Shown piece by piece: positions 7,232 through 22,921 of a stretch of DNA of 64,000 bases. The notes below the pieces were generated by a model, which saw only the letters and a program-made list of their open reading frames with translations, had not been told where the DNA came from and searched no databases. The first letter of the stretch is position 1, and each line of letters begins with the position of its first letter. The DNA is taken from contig NZ_CP132543.1 in the NCBI RefSeq assembly GCF_030845195.1, positions 3,179,501 to 3,243,500 of the forward strand, read 5' to 3'. This DNA is from Sanyastnella coralliicola (GTDB lineage Bacteria; Bacteroidota; Bacteroidia; Flavobacteriales_D; Sanyastnellaceae). The position numbers and the translations under genes are program-made.

Positions 7232-8268
7232 TAATTGATCGTTTCATTACTGAGTACCCACCAGTTGCTACCGTCAGAGATGAGCTTGACTACTTGTCCG
7301 TCAAACCCATCCATCAACCACTCTGTTTCAGTGTCGATCTCAGCTCCGTTAACCGGAACGATGGTTACAATGGAACTCAGGGGTGGATTCCCAAAACGTT
7401 TGAAAGTATAAATCCTTCCGGTGCAAGTAGATGCATCTGGAAGGGTAAAGGTGAGGTCACCATTGGTTACGTTAGCAAGAATAATATTGTGTGTGTCGTC
7501 AAGGGTCGCATTCACTGGTCCTTGAAACTGAACAACGGCCATCCCGATAGAACCTTGCACTTCGAAATCAGAACTCGGCGTAGCCGTTCCAATTCCCACC
7601 GGACGATCATTCTGATAGACCGCTGTTTCGCTTTGCGACCAGTCTTCATCGTCTTGAAGAGAGCTCATATCAATGACGAAGGCGTCATCGCCTTCCACAA
7701 TATTCAAATCGGTATCAACCAGCTGGACAAGGTTGATGCTTTCACCAGCCAGCGCCTCATCGAGGATAGGGCCAATGTCCAACCACCAGTCTTCTCCGCC
7801 TTCAGTAATCAGAAGGGAATCATTCTCAAAGGAGAAGTCAGTGATCAGGGCATCGTCTACGTTGCCTGCTTCCTCGGCATAAAGAGCGTACGGAACGCTC
7901 ACCAATTGGGAGGTGCCGAGGGTTTCATATCCATTTCCACCATCTACTTCAACTTTGAGGAAGTAAATCGTTGCTCCCCAGTTAATCAGAGCAAACGTGG
8001 GTGATAGTCCGTTTCCGGTCGAAGCGCCTTCTCCAATATTCAGTGCAAACAGACCGAATCCATCGGTCGTCACCACATGTTCTTCTTCCCACATTAAGTT
8101 CCCTCCAATAGAGGTCGCTTCAATTCCAATACGGACAAGGAGTTCTTCTTCAATAAGCGGTGCACCGTCGGTAGTGCGCGCCACCGCTTGATAGTTAATC
8201 GCTGCTGGAGCTTGGCCGAAAACAGCCAAATTCAAAAGCAACAGCGTTAGTAAGATCAGGTTCTTCAT
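7231..8268 (-). CDS. Exported Bacteroidota repeat-type surface protein, function unknown
   Basis: 345 residues with a signal peptide (LLTLLLLNLAVFGQA) and a conserved N-terminal domain starting INYQAVARTTDGAPL and ending SQLVSVPYALYAEEAG. I recognise this as a frequent opening domain of large secreted Bacteroidota proteins that often end in tail-fibre-like or T9SS domains. Here the C-terminal half (ending NWWVLSNETIN) has no CTD that I can recognise. The stop codon overlaps the ATG of the type-B cargo by 1 bp (TAATG), so it is the first gene of the four-gene cassette. It may be a surface fibre or adhesin secreted together with that cargo; this is inference. Confidence 0.7.
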   Translation of the reverse strand: MKNLILLTLLLLNLAVFGQAPAAINYQAVARTTDGAPLIEEELLVRIGIEATSIGGNLMWEEEHVVTTDGFGLFALNIGEGASTGNGLSPTFALINWGATIYFLKVEVDGGNGYETLGTSQLVSVPYALYAEEAGNVDDALITDFSFENDSLLITEGGEDWWLDIGPILDEALAGESINLVQLVDTDLNIVEGDDAFVIDMSSLQDDEDWSQSETAVYQNDRPVGIGTATPSSDFEVQGSIGMAVVQFQGPVNATLDDTHNIILANVTNGDLTFTLPDASTCTGRIYTFKRFGNPPLSSIVTIVPVNGAEIDTETEWLMDGFDGQVVKLISDGSNWWVLSNETIN

Positions 8269-8363
8269 GACTTAACGTCTTGAGGTTGAAATTACCAAGA
8301 CCCCAGCCTCCTAAGTGTTGAGCTTTAGGATTGTATCAACAAGGATTGTTTGATTAGTGTGAC

Positions 8364-8443
8364 TAGGCTTTAGGCTATAGGCGTTAGGCTTTAGTGTTTA
8401 TGGACGCCCTTCTAACGCCTAACGCCTATAGCCTAACGCCTAA
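8364..8443. repeat. TAGGCNN 7-bp tandem repeats in opposed orientation forming a 19-bp perfect inverted repeat
   Basis: Units TAGGCTT, TAGGCTA, TAGGCGT, TAGGCTT run at 8364-8391, and the same family runs on the opposite strand at about 8413-8443. Bases 8371-8389 and 8417-8435 are perfect reverse complements over 19 bp around a 27-bp loop. The structure lies just upstream of the DUF3109 promoter element. Confidence 0.9.
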
Positions 8444-8447
8444 CCAC

Positions 8448-8455
8448 TATCTTTG
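8448..8455 (+). promoter_or_regulatory. -7 promoter element of the DUF3109 gene
   Basis: TATCTTTG, a perfect TAnnTTTG match, ends 4 nt before the ATG at 8460. The region where a -33 box would sit is occupied by the repeat array. Confidence 0.6.
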
Positions 8456-8459
8456 CCCC

Positions 8460-9038
8460 ATGATCCAAATCGGAAAAACCATCATCTCGACTGAGCTCTT
8501 TGACGAGCATTTCACTTGTGACTTGAGCGCATGTAAGGGAGCCTGTTGTGTAGAAGGAAGCAGCGGTGCGCCACTAGAGGAAAGTGAACTGGATTTGCTT
8601 GAACAGGTGTATCCTCAAGTGAAGCCGTACATGACGGAAGAAGGGATCAAAAGCATTGAAGAAAATGGCTTCTTCGTGGTGGATCAAGATGGTGATTACA
8701 CCACCCCACTCGTGAACGACGCAGAATGTGCTTACACCATCTTCGATGCCGATGGCACAGCTAAATGCGGCATCGAAGCGGCATACCTTGATAAGAAGAT
8801 CGACTGGCACAAACCAATCAGCTGTCACCTTTACCCTATCCGGATCAAAGCCCTCAAAGACTTCGACGCGGTCAACTACCACAAATGGCACATCTGCAAA
8901 CCCGCCTGCGACTGTGGAGCGAAACTCCAAATGCCTGTATTCCGATTCTGTAAGTCGTCAATCATCCGCAAATACGGGGAGAAGTATTACGAGGAGTTGG
9001 AGGCGGCGTATCGGTTGTGGAAAGCGGAGTCTTACTAG
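8460..9038 (+). CDS. DUF3109 family cysteine-rich protein
   Basis: 192 residues from the ATG at 8460. The frame is open 22 codons further upstream, but that part only translates the tandem repeat, and a TATCTTTG element lies 4 nt before this ATG. Conserved features are MIQIGKTIISTELFDEHFTC at the N-terminus, a cysteine cluster (CDLSACKGACC, CAYTIF, CGIEAAY, CHLYPIR, CKPACDCG, FCKSS) and the HLYPIRI core. The pattern suggests a metal- or Fe-S-binding protein related to the YkgJ-like cysteine cluster. No function is established. The TAG stop (9036-9038) is the first three bases of a TAGGCGT repeat unit, so repeats border the gene at both ends. Confidence 0.88.
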   Translation: MIQIGKTIISTELFDEHFTCDLSACKGACCVEGSSGAPLEESELDLLEQVYPQVKPYMTEEGIKSIEENGFFVVDQDGDYTTPLVNDAECAYTIFDADGTAKCGIEAAYLDKKIDWHKPISCHLYPIRIKALKDFDAVNYHKWHICKPACDCGAKLQMPVFRFCKSSIIRKYGEKYYEELEAAYRLWKAESY

Positions 9039-9066
9039 GCGTTAGGCTATAGGCTTTAGGCGTTAG
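9036..9066. repeat. TAGGCNN 7-bp tandem repeat beginning at a stop codon
   Basis: Four units (TAGGCGT, TAGGCTA, TAGGCTT, TAGGCGT) plus TAG; the first TAG is the stop codon of the DUF3109 gene. Same family as 8364-8443. Confidence 0.9.
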
Positions 9067-9177
9067 TGCTAAGGGCTAAATGGCTAAAGTTGGTGGTACA
9101 AGAATAATTAACCTAAACATTTCGCTCGTTCGCCATTTCGCCCTAGAACAAACGGACGCCGGATGCCGGACGCCGGA
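9067..9177. repeat. Composite repeat block: GGCTAAAG octamers, 24-bp core, TTTCGCC-type units, CGGACGC units
   Basis: In order: three GGCTAAAG-type octamers (to 9089), a 24-bp non-repetitive core at 9090-9113 starting TTGGTGGTACAAG, TTTCGCC-like units (9119-9143), and CGGACGC/CGGATGC/CGGACGC 7-mers at 9153-9177. The core and block order recur at 12783-12995. Confidence 0.88.
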
Positions 9178-9194
9178 GAAAACACTCCCTTCAC

Positions 9195-11648
9195 TTAAGA
9201 AGACACAAACCCAATACTCAACTTAAAGGTCACATTGTCTACAAACTCTCCTTCGTTGTATGAACCGTGGCGGTAGAAAGCACCGATACCGAAGGATGAG
9301 AAGCCTGAAACAACGAGGTGTTTGAGTTCTATACCTGACTCGAAATAGCCTTGAGAGATATCACCTGCGGCGAGCGGTGTTAGGTGGTCACGATCACCGC
9401 GGTTTCCGATAGCCATGCTGTGTACTAGGACGACATGTGGCTTCCACTTTGGTCTACTGAATAACAAATCGCGGAAGCTGTGACGGATATGTAAGGCCGC
9501 GTATTCATCGGTGAAAACACTCCCTGGGGCAATGGTTTCGAAGGCGCGGGGAGTGGCTACCGAGAAGTCATTTTGGGTTCCGCGGATGGAGAATTGACGT
9601 AAGGCTGGGGCGTCTCCGTAGATTCTTCCCGCGTGAGCGAAGAAAGACAAGTCACCTAAAATTGGCATTCGGAAGGTGTGGTCTAGTGAGACCTGAAGGC
9701 GCAAGTATTCATTCGTCTCATCTCCTGCTTCATATTCACCCGCAATAAGCTGAGCACCAACCAGTGGCCATTTCCGCGCTAGCGAAACACGACGATTCAC
9801 CGTCTGAATCTGTTTCTCGCGGAAGCTCCATCTAACATTCAACTCCGCTTCATTGATGGGTGCACGATCATGGAATAAAGTGACCTCATCGTTCGGAGTA
9901 GAAATGAGTTGCTGATTCAAATTATTAATCAGGGTACCTGTGCGCACTTTGGCGGTTACCTTGAGATAGCCTGGCAAGTTTGAAGTAATACCGGCTTCTG
10001 CCACCTCTAGGCGATCCATTTGATTGATGAAGAGCTGGTAATAGCCCGCGTCAGATAACCATGAGTTATCTCCTGGGAATTGACTTCCGCCTCGTTCAAA
10101 GACTTCTGAGTAATAGGCTACGGAAAGAGAGGTATTCGACATTCGACGAATCTTCCAAGTGATATCTCCTCCTCCTTTGAGCTCGCGATCTTTGAAGCCA
10201 TAACCCACGAAACCACCGAAGTAGAGGTTTCGAATGAAATCATCGTTGGTGGCCAATCCACCTCCTAGTCTGAAACCTTCGTAATCGTTGAAACGCATGA
10301 GTCGGCTCAAATCGAAATCGACCTTGCCCATCTTCAGCTTGCCTGACATAAAGGCCTGGAACCAACGGTACTTCTGATCGAACTTGAATTCATTCGAAAG
10401 GCTGTCCATCCACTCATAGGTCTGAAGCTCACGTGAATCAAGGGAGTCGTTTCGGTACTGATTCCAGAATTCTTCTGGCTGACGCACCGTCGCCGCTTCC
10501 ATTCGGTAGGCAATCTCGCCGACGTCTCTTCTCTTCAACTCTGGATCCAATTGAATGTTGGAGTGATAAGATCTACCAATGCCAACAACCTCCATGAAAT
10601 CCACTTCAATGTTATTGAAAGTGAGGTCCGTGTTCAATTGCACAGGAAACCATTGCTGCCCATCGATAAACTCATATCGTTGGCGAATGCGAATTCCAAA
10701 AGTCTCTGTAGCTGTAGCAGGTTCTGCAATCACACTTTGTGCAGCATATCCATTGCTGTTCAGGTGAAGTACGCCTTTCAATCCGTTGATCTTCTTCCCT
10801 GTACGAGGTCTGAATGACAAGACAAACACTGTATCCTGATCCTGATAAGTTGTGTCTTCGATGATGAAGAGGTACTTACTAATTGCACTCGAATGGAAAG
10901 GAGACAAATAGCGTAGGTCCATTAAACTGAACTCATCTCGATAGATCGAGAACGATTGCAACTGCGTGCTCAACAAGGCAAAATCTGGGGCTTGAAGTCC
11001 TGAAACTTTGCTGGCCTTTACGATCTCCGTATCCTTTCCCTTACTCAGGAATCTGCGTTCACTGATCGACTCCATCAAAAAGAGATGCTGTTCATCAAAG
11101 AACTTCAAGGCCTCTTGATCTGAAGTATCAAGCTCTGCTACTTTTTGTGGATTGTCAATGTAAACACTGTCAGGAAGCGCAGTAAAAACCAGCTTGTTGT
11201 AGGCATCATAGACGAAACTCCTCGACTCTTCCGGGTTGTTGACCTTTTTGTTCTTGATGGCCTTCCGCATCAATGCTTCTGCTGGATTCTCTCCAGGAAG
11301 CACCACAGCTTCTGCTAACTCAACACGTTCAGGACGCAATTCAACCAAGAGCTGTGACTGCATTGATTTGACCTCAACCCGTGTGCTTTTGTAGCCGACA
11401 AAACTGAAAACCAAGGTGGCCCCCTGCGCTACTTGCGGAATATCAAACTTCCCATCAATGTCGGTATAGGAACCTGCTTGTTGTCCTTCTACCACCACCG
11501 TCACAAAGGCCATCGGCACCTTCGTTTGTGCGTCAATGACACGTCCAGACACCTGGGCTTGAAGGCCCATGATAGACAGTAGAAAGACGACAAGAAGAAC
11601 GGTACGACGACAAAGCATCATGAACGCAAGTTGTATTTGGTCTAGCAT
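9195..11648 (-). CDS. DUF5686 outer-membrane protein with N-terminal carboxypeptidase-regulatory-like domain
   Basis: 817 residues. A hydrophobic signal segment lies around residues 11-31 (LCRRTVLLVVFLLSIMGLQA); the true start may be the ATG at 11621 or 11618. A CarboxypepD_reg-like beta-sandwich follows (VSGRVIDAQTKVPMAFVTVV ... FVGYKSTRVEV, residues 32-105). The rest is DUF5686, with the conserved opening PAEALMRKAIKNK and a C-terminal half of amphipathic strands ending FGIGAFYRHGSYNEG and a terminal aromatic-poor strand. The architecture resembles a 16-22-strand barrel with a plug-like N-terminus but lacks a TonB-dependent receptor signature. The gene is monocistronic, flanked by a repeat block downstream. 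The function is unknown. Confidence 0.82.
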   Translation of the reverse strand: MLDQIQLAFMMLCRRTVLLVVFLLSIMGLQAQVSGRVIDAQTKVPMAFVTVVVEGQQAGSYTDIDGKFDIPQVAQGATLVFSFVGYKSTRVEVKSMQSQLLVELRPERVELAEAVVLPGENPAEALMRKAIKNKKVNNPEESRSFVYDAYNKLVFTALPDSVYIDNPQKVAELDTSDQEALKFFDEQHLFLMESISERRFLSKGKDTEIVKASKVSGLQAPDFALLSTQLQSFSIYRDEFSLMDLRYLSPFHSSAISKYLFIIEDTTYQDQDTVFVLSFRPRTGKKINGLKGVLHLNSNGYAAQSVIAEPATATETFGIRIRQRYEFIDGQQWFPVQLNTDLTFNNIEVDFMEVVGIGRSYHSNIQLDPELKRRDVGEIAYRMEAATVRQPEEFWNQYRNDSLDSRELQTYEWMDSLSNEFKFDQKYRWFQAFMSGKLKMGKVDFDLSRLMRFNDYEGFRLGGGLATNDDFIRNLYFGGFVGYGFKDRELKGGGDITWKIRRMSNTSLSVAYYSEVFERGGSQFPGDNSWLSDAGYYQLFINQMDRLEVAEAGITSNLPGYLKVTAKVRTGTLINNLNQQLISTPNDEVTLFHDRAPINEAELNVRWSFREKQIQTVNRRVSLARKWPLVGAQLIAGEYEAGDETNEYLRLQVSLDHTFRMPILGDLSFFAHAGRIYGDAPALRQFSIRGTQNDFSVATPRAFETIAPGSVFTDEYAALHIRHSFRDLLFSRPKWKPHVVLVHSMAIGNRGDRDHLTPLAAGDISQGYFESGIELKHLVVSGFSSFGIGAFYRHGSYNEGEFVDNVTFKLSIGFVSS
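9772..9784 (-). repeat. Dispersed word CGCTAGCGCGGAA
   Basis: Exact copy within the DUF5686 gene, read there as SLARKW. Confidence 0.9.
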
Positions 11649-11677
11649 TGCAACAAGGATACTACGAGTTTTAGTAT

Positions 11678-11690
11678 CGCTAGCGCGGAA
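11678..11690 (+). repeat. Dispersed word CGCTAGCGCGGAA (intergenic copy)
   Basis: The only copy of the 16 outside a coding sequence; it lies between the divergent DUF5686 and radical SAM genes. Confidence 0.9.
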
Positions 11691-11742
11691 AAATGACGAA
11701 TGGCAACTACAGTTTGTTACACTTTGGCAAGGTCCGATGCCC

Positions 11743-11750
11743 TAACTTTG
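11743..11750 (+). promoter_or_regulatory. -7 promoter element of the radical SAM gene
   Basis: TAACTTTG, perfect TAnnTTTG, ends 4 nt before the GTG at 11755. Confidence 0.55.
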
Positions 11751-11754
11751 TTTC

Positions 11755-12783
11755 GTGCAGCGCATTTGGCAAGACCGACGAGAACAGTGGAAAGCCCTTT
11801 CAATTCGGAAGGTGGCTAACTTCTTTGGACTTTGGCTGAGTTACCATCTTTCAAGACTCACCCGAAGACCCCTGCACTGGGGTGGTCCGTTTTCGCTATC
11901 GATCGAACCTACGACTGCCTGTAACTTGGGTTGTCCTGAATGTCCTTCTGGTCTTAAACAGTTCACCCGCGCTACCGGTAAGCTGAGCAAAGAAACCCTC
12001 AACAAGTTACTCGACCAAACACAACGCACCCTCGGAAATATCATCTTCTATTTTCAAGGCGAACCCTATTTGCATCCAGAATTCACGGATCTGGTTAAAA
12101 CAGCCAGTGACCGAGGCATCTACACCACGACTTCCACCAATGCCCACTTCTTGGATGAGAAGCAGGCACGAAAAACAGTGGAAAGTGGGCTCTCTCGTCT
12201 CATCATTTCTATTGATGGCACCACGCAAGAAACCTACGAGCAATACCGAGTCCACGGTTCCCTCGAAAAGGTACTAGCCGGAACACGTAACATCTTGAAG
12301 GCACGCGAGGAAATGGGTTCAACCACTCCCCACGTCATTTTCCAGTTCTTGGTGGTCAAGCCCAACGAGCATCAGATCGACGACGTGCACAAACTAGCCG
12401 CAGAACTTGGCGTGGATGAAGTCAGACTCAAAACAGCTCAGGTTTACGATTACGAAAACGGCAATCCACTTATCCCAGACGATACCAAATACTCTCGCTA
12501 CCGTCAGCAAAAAGACGGAACCTGGACCATCAAAAACAAGCTCCTCAACCAGTGCTGGCGCATGTGGCAAGGATGTGTCATCACCTGGGATGGGAAAGTG
12601 GTTCCTTGTTGCTTCGATAAAGACGCCACACATCAACTCGGCGATACCGCAGAAGATGGTTTCCACTCCATTTGGAATGGCCCAGCTTACCATGATTTTC
12701 GTCAATCTATTCTTCAGTCCCGTGACCAAATCGATATTTGTACTAATTGTACAGAAGGAACGAAGGTGTGGGCAGAGGAATAG
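11755..12783 (+). CDS. Radical SAM/SPASM domain protein
   Basis: 342 residues, GTG start chosen because a TAACTTTG element ends 4 nt upstream and the frame matches. The CxxxCxxC cluster that binds the SAM-cleaving [4Fe-4S] is seen as CNLGCPEC (about residue 57), followed by the radical SAM barrel (IIFYFQGEPYLHPEF, LIISIDGTTQETYEQYR). The C-terminal SPASM region has further cysteines (CWRMWQGCVITWDGKVVPCC, then CTNCTEG) for auxiliary clusters. Such proteins modify peptides or act in cofactor and glycan chemistry. No substrate peptide is encoded nearby, so the reaction cannot be named. The TAG stop shares its last base with the first unit of an 18-copy octamer array. Confidence 0.85.
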   Translation: MQRIWQDRREQWKALSIRKVANFFGLWLSYHLSRLTRRPLHWGGPFSLSIEPTTACNLGCPECPSGLKQFTRATGKLSKETLNKLLDQTQRTLGNIIFYFQGEPYLHPEFTDLVKTASDRGIYTTTSTNAHFLDEKQARKTVESGLSRLIISIDGTTQETYEQYRVHGSLEKVLAGTRNILKAREEMGSTTPHVIFQFLVVKPNEHQIDDVHKLAAELGVDEVRLKTAQVYDYENGNPLIPDDTKYSRYRQQKDGTWTIKNKLLNQCWRMWQGCVITWDGKVVPCCFDKDATHQLGDTAEDGFHSIWNGPAYHDFRQSILQSRDQIDICTNCTEGTKVWAEE

Positions 12784-12926
12784 GCTAAAGGGCTAAAGGG
12801 CTGAAGGGCTAAAGGGCTAAAGGGCTAAATGGCTAAAGGGCTAAAGGGCTAAAGGGCTGAAGGGCTAAAGGGCTAAAGGGCTAAAGGGCTAAATGGCTAA
12901 ATGGCTAAATGGCTAAATGGCTAAGG
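12783..12926. repeat. 18-copy GGCTAAAG octamer tandem array
   Basis: Eighteen contiguous 8-bp units, mostly GGCTAAAG with GGCTGAAG and GGCTAAAT variants and GGCTAAGG as the last. It starts on the last base of the radical SAM stop codon. The unit length is not a multiple of three and there is no reading frame through it. Confidence 0.95.
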
Positions 12927-12995
12927 TTGGTGGTACAAGAATAATTAACCCAAAAACATTTCGCCTTTTCGCCTTTTTGCCCGTTCGCCCTTTTA
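12927..12995. repeat. 24-bp core and TTTCGCC-type units, second copy of the composite block
   Basis: Bases 12927-12950 are identical to 9090-9113 (starting TTGGTGGTACAAG), again preceded by GGCTAAA octamers and followed by CATTTCGC/CTTTTCGC/CTTTTTGC-like octamers. It ends just before the start of the UPF0104 gene. Confidence 0.92.
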
Positions 12996-13010
12996 CTAAC
13001 TTGAGCCACG

Positions 13011-14231
13011 TTGGCAGAGAATGAAGAAGACATAAAAAAACGCCTCTCCTGGCGGCGGATTATGATCCCGGTGTTGATCGGCTTGATTGCTGCTGGAGGA
13101 TTGTTATGGTGGAACTTAACCAAGCCTACTTACATTCCCGTAACCGATGGTCAAGTGGGAACGCATGCATGGGTTGATGCCAATGAAAACGGAGCTCCTG
13201 ACACCTCTGACCCTGAGGAGTTCGTGTTGCAAGAAGGCGGCGGCTACATCGAATCCTACGCCGGGGAACTACTTTCCAACTATTCCTGGGAAGAAGATGC
13301 ATGGATCGCCATTGCGCTGGCCTTGTTGATGGTCGTGTTACGCGATGCCGGGTACATCTATCGCATTCGATTGTTGACCAATAAGTTCTTGACATGGCGA
13401 CAAAGCTTTGATGTCATCATGCTCTGGGAGTTTGCCAGTGCGCTTACACCTAGTGTCGTGGGGGGATCTGGGGTTGCCATTTTCGTTGTGAACCGAGAAG
13501 GAATCAACCTCGGAAAATCGACGGCAACGATCTTCATTACAGCGATGATGGATGAAATCTTCTACATTGTGATGGTGCCGCTGCTGTTTGTGATCATTGG
13601 AGGAGATCGCCTATTCCCTTCAGAAGGACTATTCGATATCGTGACACCTGAGTTGCTTCGCACACTGTTCTATGCGGGCTATGGATTCATCGTCTTGCTC
13701 ACGACTACCATACTTACGGGAGTCTTCTTCTTCCCGCACCAAACGAAACTATTCCTGGTCAAGCTATTCTCTTTCGGCTTCCTTCGTCGCTGGCAACACC
13801 ATATGGTGAAGTTGGGTGATGAAATTGTCATCAGTAGTGAAGAGTTCAAAGGAAAGAGCATCGGATTTTGGGCCAAAGCCATGGCTTCTACAGCCGTGAG
13901 CTGGACTGCCCGTTTCCTCACCTTGAATTTTATCTTCCTTGCCTTTACTGCTGGGTTCGATCATTTCGAAGTTTATGGTCGACAGCTAGTAATGTGGGTG
14001 ATCCTCTTGATCTCTTTCACCCCTGGTTCAAGTGGTATTGCTGAACTGCTGCTCCCAGCATTCTTCAACTACCTTCCATGGGAGAATGCGGCACTTGCAC
14101 CTGTATTGTTGGTTCTTGTGGCCGTCATCTGGCGATTATTGACCTACTTCCCTTACCTCTTTGTTGGTGCTGCAATCTTACCGGGATGGCTTCGTAGAAC
14201 AGCCAAACGAAAGGTTGAGCAGGCGGGATAG
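13011..14231 (+). CDS. UPF0104 / lysylphosphatidylglycerol-synthase-TM family membrane protein with EF-hand-like insertion
   Basis: 406 residues from a TTG at 13011, 6-7 nt after a TAACTTG element; the next in-frame ATG is at residue 18, inside TM1, so the TTG start is preferred. TM1 (MIPVLIGLIAAGGLLWW) is followed by about 55 extracytoplasmic residues containing VDANENGAPDTSDPEEF, a loop with the D-x-N-x-N-G-x-x-D spacing of calcium loops. The multi-TM core has ASALTPSVVGGSGVAIFVVN and the C-terminal FTPGSSGIAELLL typical of the family. Substrate unknown; flippase-like transport is the family guess. It is separated by 38 bp from the trans-sulfuration gene and may be co-transcribed with it. 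Confidence 0.8.
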   Translation: MAENEEDIKKRLSWRRIMIPVLIGLIAAGGLLWWNLTKPTYIPVTDGQVGTHAWVDANENGAPDTSDPEEFVLQEGGGYIESYAGELLSNYSWEEDAWIAIALALLMVVLRDAGYIYRIRLLTNKFLTWRQSFDVIMLWEFASALTPSVVGGSGVAIFVVNREGINLGKSTATIFITAMMDEIFYIVMVPLLFVIIGGDRLFPSEGLFDIVTPELLRTLFYAGYGFIVLLTTTILTGVFFFPHQTKLFLVKLFSFGFLRRWQHHMVKLGDEIVISSEEFKGKSIGFWAKAMASTAVSWTARFLTLNFIFLAFTAGFDHFEVYGRQLVMWVILLISFTPGSSGIAELLLPAFFNYLPWENAALAPVLLVLVAVIWRLLTYFPYLFVGAAILPGWLRRTAKRKVEQAG

Positions 14232-22039: not shown

Positions 22040-22921
22040 ATGCGAATTCTTGGCCTAATGACCTGTCTCTTGTTCGGCGCTAGCCTGCAAGCTCAAACCC
22101 TTTTCTCAGAAGACTTTGGAATCGGATGCAATCAAGGCACCCTGGTTACCTCCTATGTTTCACCCAATGGCAATTGGACGGTTACTGAAACCGGACTGAA
22201 TGAAGCCTCATCCAATGTTTGGTACGTAAGTGCCATGGAAAACAATACGGGAGAAGGCGGTTGCGGCGCCACCTGCGGATCAAACCCAACCTTGCACGTC
22301 GGTAATCAAACAGTCCTCGGTATTCCAGCTGACCAAGGTGCAGCATACTATGAAGGCCTCGCCGGGTTTTGCGGACTCTTACCTTGTGGGACGACCAATA
22401 GACGCGTCGAATCACCTATAATCGATTGTACCGGTCATGAGAACATCGTACTCAACTTCCTCTACCTCGAAGGCGGGAATGTACAAGACAATGCTACCGT
22501 CTGGTACTATGACGGAAACATTTGGGCTCAATTAGACGAAACACCCAAAACCTTCTCCGGAATCTGTTCACCGCAAGGACAGTGGACTGCTCGAACAGTC
22601 ATTTTACCGGCATCTGCCAACGAAAACCCCAACGTTCAAATTGGCTTTTTGTGGACCAGCAACGATGATGGAGTAGCGACCGACCCTTCTTTCGCTGTTG
22701 ATGACATTCTAGTTTCAGGAGATGAAATTGAAGTGGTGGTAGGTACTTGTCCGGGAGATTTCAATGGCGACGGCACCATCAATTCTGCAGACCTTCTCCT
22801 CTTCTTGAGTGACTTTGGCTGTTCCGAAGACTGTCTTTACGAAATGGTAATCGATGGATTGAATAATGTAGCTGACCTACTGGCCTTTCTTGAAGTGTTT
22901 GGAACCGACTGCCCAGAGTAG
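22040..22921 (+). CDS. Secreted protein with C-terminal dockerin-like EF-hand repeats
   Basis: 293 residues with a signal peptide (LGLMTCLLFGASLQAQ). The central 180 residues look like a jelly-roll/MAM-like domain (TLFSEDFGIG, NRRVESPIIDCTGHENIVLN, FLWTSNDDG) with several cysteines. The C-terminus carries two dockerin-like segments: CPGDFNGDGTINSADLLLFL, with intact calcium ligands, and YEMVIDGLNNVADLLAFLEV, where most ligands are lost. I see no type-A or type-B CTD, though dockerin-like ends of this kind are common in Bacteroidota surface proteins. It is convergent with the imelysin operon; the stop codons are one base apart. Confidence 0.75.
   Translation: MRILGLMTCLLFGASLQAQTLFSEDFGIGCNQGTLVTSYVSPNGNWTVTETGLNEASSNVWYVSAMENNTGEGGCGATCGSNPTLHVGNQTVLGIPADQGAAYYEGLAGFCGLLPCGTTNRRVESPIIDCTGHENIVLNFLYLEGGNVQDNATVWYYDGNIWAQLDETPKTFSGICSPQGQWTARTVILPASANENPNVQIGFLWTSNDDGVATDPSFAVDDILVSGDEIEVVVGTCPGDFNGDGTINSADLLLFLSDFGCSEDCLYEMVIDGLNNVADLLAFLEVFGTDCPE

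Follow-up and report, generated by a model that had tools for sequence, protein, structure and literature searches.

Why two intergenic gaps bordered by different genes should share an identical 24-bp sequence embedded in tandem octamers is the question raised by a 64,000-nucleotide stretch of the chromosome of Sanyastnella coralliicola (the window; G000:C1:3179501-3243500, G000 being its own genome, 4.10 Mb in one contig). An initial annotation, made from the letters alone, described the two blocks, referred to here as A and B, and proposed that they may be a mobile or templated element. Our analysis indicates that they are probably two members of a large, dispersed, intergenic population of 7- and 8-bp satellite arrays grown by slippage, with the segments lying between arrays being replaced by ectopic copying from one array to another and the 24-bp core constituting one of these linkers. 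The two gaps would thus share 24 bp because 7- and 8-bp arrays pepper the chromosome and segments are apparently copied from gap to gap. The core looks like a passenger of array copying, and not like a mobile element of its own. This interpretation is based on the sampled DNA, in which arrays are numerous, lie for the most part between genes, belong to many unit types with recurrent ordered units and vary in length between sister species, and in which the segments they flank differ between the species. For comparison, the genome of a sister species (G002, an 80-contig assembly with around 93% identity to G000 in aligned DNA) and a third genome of the genus (G001) were used. Sites A, B and C are the three core loci of G000, and A' and B' the orthologous copies in G002.

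Structure of the two blocks

The elements of both blocks are listed below by window position.

9034-9070, + strand: heptamer array of GGCGTTA/GGCTATA/GGCTTTA units, abutting the DUF3109 stop codon, at the left edge of block A
Within 9034-9070, + strand: ordered 28-mer GGCGTTAGGCTATAGGCTTTAGGCGTTA, formed by four ordered units
9067-9089, + strand: left octamers of block A, GGCTAAAK, two full units and one degenerate, matched elsewhere in the genome
9090-9113, + strand: 24-bp core, copy A (exact match and model search)
9114-9144, + strand: right arm of block A, inverted octamers AAACATTTCGC, TTCGCC and ATTTCGCC
9150-9180, + strand: CGGACGC/CGGATGC heptamer array to the right of copy A, of a family also present to the right of the third copy
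12783-12924, + strand: left arm of block B, 17.8 octamers GGCTAAAG/T, beginning at the radical SAM stop codon
12927-12950, + strand: 24-bp core, copy B (exact match and model search)
12951-12995, + strand: right arm of block B, inverted octamers CATTTCGCC, TTTTCGCC, TTTTTGCC and CGTTCGCC

The core, TTGGTGGTACAAGAATAATTAACC, is exact at both places, 3.8 kb apart and on the same strand, and no match to it was obtained in 100 shuffles of the window, even with 3 mismatches allowed. It is preceded in block B by 17.8 copies of the octamer GGCTAAAG (Tandem Repeats Finder) and in block A by the two full units and the degenerate one, so that both the common core behind octamers and the difference in octamer copy number, as originally described, were confirmed. 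The similarity between A and B is not limited to the core and spreads into the arms on both sides, from the last octamers through the core to the first right-hand units. Similarly, AAACATTTCGC and TTTCGCC-like units are indeed found on the right of both blocks, as the proposed common order of repeat families implied, but by inspection these units are the reverse complement of the left octamer family, with G replacing one T (GGCGAAAT), and the unit forms GGCGAAAT and GGCTAAAT are mixed within single arrays elsewhere in the genome. The arms are therefore inverted, without a second family, and each block constitutes an imperfect inverted structure of octamers, core and inverted octamers. Having units of 8 bp, the arms fall outside the heptamer satellite arrays of the LSSR type, which are defined by a 7-bp unit. 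The gap of block A separates the convergent genes DUF3109 and DUF5686, and that of block B the codirectional genes for a radical SAM/SPASM and an LPG_synthase_TM protein.

Two other arrangements were noted. At 8362-8451 of the window (within a folded stretch at 8355-8450) there are inverted heptamer arrays of another family with the same architecture and partly mirrored variants, which form a long predicted hairpin, far more stable than its shuffles (fold z -8.90), and at G000:C1:2703980-2704151 (L092) mixed GGCTAAAT/GGCGAAAT octamers are broken by GTGTTGA-like linkers.

Satellite arrays across the chromosome

Arrays were counted in an evenly spaced 398-kb sample of G000, which contained 76 arrays of period 7 (77 before one masked run of N was dropped) and 3 of period 8, the periods between 5 and 12 other than 7 giving 0 to 6 each; no period-7 array appeared in one mononucleotide shuffle. 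The 7-bp unit is thus over-represented with respect to other periods, as in heptamer satellite arrays of the LSSR type. Once the window was added (464 kb), the total of 88 period-7/8 arrays could be grouped into 20 unit clusters, 12 of which contain two or more arrays; clusters that are related to each other, two octamer ones for instance, are counted separately. Array placement and gap types were scored with a crude open reading frame (ORF) caller. By this measure 80 of the 88 arrays are intergenic, and array length varies between relatives (see below). After leaving out 10 arrays that fell in no scored gap, the remaining 78 were distributed among convergent (32, with 19.4 expected by length), codirectional (41, with 36.1 expected) and divergent gaps (5, with 22.5 expected). 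Inverted relatives made up 8/36 of the neighbouring array pairs and direct relatives 3/36, the corresponding figures for random pairs being 7.1% and 7.5%.

The order of unit variants is also shared between loci. With up to 2 mismatches allowed, the 28-mer of four ordered variants at the edge of block A is matched 30 times in G000 (6 of them exactly), on both strands, and 6 times in G002, whereas its reversed control gave none. This recurring order of variants suggests that ready-made arrays have been dispersed, besides any independent amplification.

A third core copy and the cores of the sister species

A search of the genome for the core, as recommended in the initial annotation, was carried out. 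A pattern search of the 4.10 Mb of G000 yielded no copy beyond A and B within 3 mismatches, but BLAST of block B revealed a further place at 719 kb, with a copy at G000:C1:719390-719434 (- strand), 2.47 Mb away along the contig, which had been missed because it has 4 mismatches. The order at this site C is again octamers, core and right arm. It lies between two ORFs which we take to be pyrD and modA, from a reading of their translations and not from a database result. A sequence model of the core was built from five copies (three in G000 and two in G002), which fit it by construction (E <1e-11); three more weak matches (E 0.21-0.52), of which G000 has one and G002 the other two, were left out of the copy count, and nothing was found in G001 among the 150 of 418 candidates scored. 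For G000 and G002, 150 of 639 and 150 of 585 candidates were scored, respectively, so that a further weak copy could escape in any of the three genomes. Viral contigs contained no exact match to the core, a search in which diverged copies would be missed, and a viral origin was rejected on this basis.

Diverged cores are present in both orthologous gaps of G002, and the two-block arrangement is therefore older than the split between G000 and G002. The gap behind the radical SAM gene carries other octamers in G001, GGGAAACT and GGTCTGAT. When the cores are compared, A and B show 0 mismatches, A and A' 5, B and B' 2, A and B' 2, A' and B' 6, and C and A 4. Both B copies thus resemble the A core of G000 more closely than its orthologue A' does. 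Paralogues closer than orthologues are what gene conversion would produce, and this pattern, present in G000 (A-B 0) and not in G002 (A'-B' 6), is weak, being read from 24 positions; it suggests that a B-like core may have been copied to A in G000.

A comparison of insertion sites, including a check for target duplications, had also been recommended, and could be judged at site C alone, because both species have a core at A and at B. At site C, G000 and G002 can be aligned over the octamers on the left and over the composite on the right that runs from CGGACGCC to GTCCAC, but between the two, where G000 has the core and right arm, G002 has GTCTAGAG-like sequence instead. Octamers and a CGGACGCC array also flank block A. 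Site C is therefore a replaced segment between shared arrays, and the clean empty site with target-site duplication that characterizes MITEs and transposons was not found. The composite beside it (G000:C1:719256-719358) recurs in many places and consists of CGGACGCC heptamers, a TAGCATGRTTAG-like stretch, a CCGCCT..AGGCGG palindrome and GTCCAC heptamers; for a query with this composite, octamers and gene ends, the matches listed number 87 in G000 and 58 in G002, and many of these fall in the composite.

Turnover of arrays among relatives

With up to one mismatch allowed, the octamer pair has 68 matches in G000, 14 in G002 and 0 in G001. It was matched in 9 of the 40 genomes searched, the other seven having a single match apiece, a level that the reversed control also reaches in such genomes. 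G001 has families of its own, TTTCCCAG and GTCCATAG, mostly of period 8 (20 octamer vs. 7 heptamer arrays sampled), in contrast to the sample of G000, where octamer arrays are the minority. A junction between two arrays, CCCGAAATTGTCCAT, recurs in G001. In the same genome, and as a parallel to the core, two different octamer arrays were seen connected by one and the same linker, the short GAAATTGTCCAT, in several places (L072 538-768 and L073 4965-5056, 5372-5551 and 10369-10485). In a thin sample of 11 other family members, with one stretch of up to 20 kb each, nine had no period-7/8 array, one (G013) had four and another (G010) a single one; none of four genomes of the same order, also thinly sampled, had any.

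Between G000 and G002, several of the 11 gaps displayed carry different families, or an array in only one of the species. Length also differs: the site B array has 17.8 octamers in G000 vs. about 3 degenerate ones in G002, and a CGGTTGA array measures 113 bp in one species vs. 72 bp in the other. The regions compared contained 24 arrays in G000 vs. 8 in G002, and 18 vs. 10.

Arrays at synteny differences

Along 355 kb compared between G000 and G002, 41 differences were listed. An array was located near 18 of the 45 intergenic ends of these differences, with 5.4 expected, a value reached in 0 of 2000 simulations. When the test was restricted to the 22 gene-size differences (length difference of at least 400 bp), the proportion was 8 of 25 intergenic ends, with 2.96 expected (p 0.006). 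One 76-bp difference from G002, at 22808-22884 of the window, has no heptamer array; the stretch looks internally repetitive and may be coding.

A gene of the window located between two arrays of one family deserves mention in this context.

714-792, + strand: CCGTCCA heptamer array to the left of the DUF1801/OmdA gene
1445-1528, + strand: CCGTCCA heptamer array to the right of the DUF1801/OmdA gene

The DUF1801/OmdA gene (805-1428) sits between these direct arrays, and at the same place G002 has one stretch of around 28 bp of CCGTCCA heptamers, below the length of the array scan. The best match to the encoded protein in G002 shows 25% identity, that is, there is no close orthologue, and a match with 47% identity exists in G001, elsewhere.

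Alternative explanations

The blocks could be functional 3'-end elements, in which the inverted arms would form a hairpin, with the core in its loop, that terminates transcription or shields the mRNA upstream of it. Stop codons directly adjoin several arrays, and the scarcity of arrays in divergent gaps, their enrichment in convergent ones and the frequency of inverted relatives among neighbouring arrays would all be expected of such elements, although the placement is equally explained by tolerance of inserts behind genes. Folding favours a hairpin at copy C (z -4.13) and at the nearby heptamer pair mentioned above, whereas the other four of the five blocks fold weakly (z -0.34 to -1.98). In an alignment of the five sequences, 3 of 19 predicted pairs are kept through change on both sides, but the covariation term is unfavourable (+0.68). 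Five terminator-like hits were obtained in 8800-13300, vs. 4.8 in shuffles, and one of these lies in the CGGACGCC array beside block A (minus strand, 9174-9155); there was none, as a GC-rich stem followed by a T tract, at either core, and Rfam gave 0 matches at gathering scores over 8000-13500. An intrinsic terminator and a structured RNA are thus unsupported, and we regard a 3'-end function as unlikely. It is even harder to sustain that the arrays are bound by a regulator or nucleoid protein that recognises repeats. The existence of repeated ordered units on both strands would fit this role, which has a precedent in the proposal made for the TAACTGA repeats of Beggiatoaceae, in the part of that work available to us (PMC4679880), but the 12 recurring unit clusters and the different families at several orthologous gaps would call for many regulators, and arrays are rare in divergent gaps, where promoters lie. 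This makes the idea improbable.

That the core is the body of a small mobile element (MITE, REP/REPIN) moved by a transposase appears very improbable, in spite of a composite order common to three loci, one of them 2.47 Mb away, and of a Y1 transposase match in each of the three genomes of the genus. The three copies found in 4.1 Mb are few for an element of this type, site C corresponds to a replacement between shared arrays with no duplicated target, and a discrete mobile element was rejected on these grounds. The Y1 match of G000 (G000:C1:260062) is marginal (22.5 bits, 26.4 with neighbours, for a cut-off of 23) and, in the approximately 1.5 kb inspected around it, adjoins tandem palindromes GGGCACGCATGCGTGCCC and not octamers. 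The palindrome is contained in tandem units of roughly 50-60 bp, by eye, at L107 1000-1300, beside this only Y1 match of G000, and the Y1 gene of G002 has different repeats, ATGCCGTAGGCAT, beside it. Since other palindromes adjoin the Y1 gene both in G000 and in G002, a REP/RAYT system was rejected for both. The original view that the blocks resemble neither a known terminator nor a REP therefore stands, and that of a mobile element does not; a templated origin would fit loosely, in the sense of short-tract copying between array loci. The least credible possibility is that one block arose from the other by local segmental duplication, and nothing else. The two exact copies, 3.8 kb apart and on the same strand, are in its favour, but a single recent duplication, which would leave the core in only two places, is contradicted by the distant third copy and by the diverged cores already present in both gaps of G002.

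The explanation we consider probable, slippage-grown arrays with copying of the segments between them, could operate as follows. Replication slippage would lengthen and shorten the arrays, and arrays of the same family at different loci would offer short homology for ectopic recombination, short-tract gene conversion or template switching, through which a linker between two arrays, be it the 24-bp core or sometimes a gene, could be copied or swapped together with them. Octamer arms would have enclosed the core at A and B already before the split of G000 and G002. In G000 the cores of these two sites were probably re-homogenised, and at site C the core may have been gained in G000 or lost in G002. 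It would need no function of its own. Several points weigh against this explanation. None of the data caught a recombination event as such, and the case for conversion comes from 24 bp, over which A and B could be identical by chance. Of the gene-size differences, 14/22 have no array at either end, and the count of 18/45 ends includes events that are themselves changes in array length. Besides, the break tests took their arrays from G000 alone and relied on a crude ORF caller, and the ends of any given event depend on each other; the arrays of G002 may be understated because it is an 80-contig assembly with fewer arrays. Depletion from divergent gaps would also fit a functional 3'-end role.

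A more far-reaching proposal, rather unlikely in our opinion, is that the arrays make up a chromosome-wide grid of short homology anchors, in which self-renewing 7-8-bp satellites would exchange linkers and whole genes by recombination. If so, there would be an integrase-free shuffling of small cassettes in the genus, and the DUF1801/OmdA gene between its direct arrays, with the single short stretch of G002, would be an example of cassette exchange. Bacterial intergenic DNA is usually thought to be compact, yet G000 carries many coexisting types of 7-8-bp satellites, which differ between two genomes about 93% identical in aligned DNA and, along the 355 kb compared, are found at more breakpoints than intergenic placement predicts. 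The coexistence of types and the excess at breakpoints make a long-standing puzzle, i.e. why heptamer repeats dominate bacterial satellites and what their role is, testable by comparing strains of one genus.

Comparison with known systems

Several heptamer families in one genome, as in G000, are also a trait of the cyanobacterial short tandemly repeated repetitive (STRR) sequences. REP/REPIN sequences with RAYT (Y1) transposases are short, dispersed, intergenic and partly palindromic, but they are not tandem 7-8-mers as the arrays are, and different sequences are repeated next to the Y1 gene in both G000 and G002.

The closest known kind is that of intergenic heptamer arrays, represented by GGGAATC in Xanthomonas and TAACTGA in Beggiatoaceae. 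The portion of PMC4692102 available to us describes GGGAATC arrays with mostly four units, 89-93% of them intergenic, often as two close and inverted arrays (70 and 75 cases), with 16% between convergent vs. 7-8% between divergent genes and strong length variation among related species; the same source mentions Calothrix heptanucleotides. The arrays of G000 are similar in the size of the unit, in lying between genes, in forming inverted pairs and in being rare where genes diverge. To judge from that portion, Xanthomonas has one G-rich, quadruplex-capable family, in contrast to the 12 recurring clusters of G000, with octamers too and with shared unique linkers like the core. By inspection, a GGG run (unit GGGANTN) occurs in no 7-bp cluster among the 20 of the 464-kb sample, the whole genome not having been searched. 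TAACTGA direct repeats are, in the accessible part of PMC4679880, intergenic heptamers of Beggiatoaceae, Cyanobacteria and five Bacteroidetes, with nearly identical composite regions (two cases in Elizabethkingia) and a suggested role in rearrangement, all of which finds a parallel in G000. The Beggiatoaceae repeats, as presented there, have one unit and lie mostly just before start codons, whereas G000 has many units, rare in divergent gaps; TAACTGA is the consensus of none of the 20 clusters of the 464-kb sample (the whole genome was not searched), a single-array cluster, AACTAAT, being one base off.

A polymerase slippage favouring 7-bp units is a proposal relayed, in the parts seen, by both PMC4692102 and PMC4679880. 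Abundant heptamer-derived satellite families of bacteria, and the transposition of non-coding satellites in one species, appear in the available text of a survey of prokaryote satellites (PMC6749651), which names Chloroflexus as a single-heptamer case and, within that text, does not describe linkers shared between different arrays. Neither many coexisting families, shared linkers nor segment swaps between arrays are described in the accessible portions of these three sources, and we found no other precedents in the literature, which is not proof that none is in print. With respect to the precedents as far as they could be consulted, what differs in G000 is the coexistence of many families, the linkers they share and the turnover of families between related species, to which a swapping of segments between arrays may be added as the likely mechanism.

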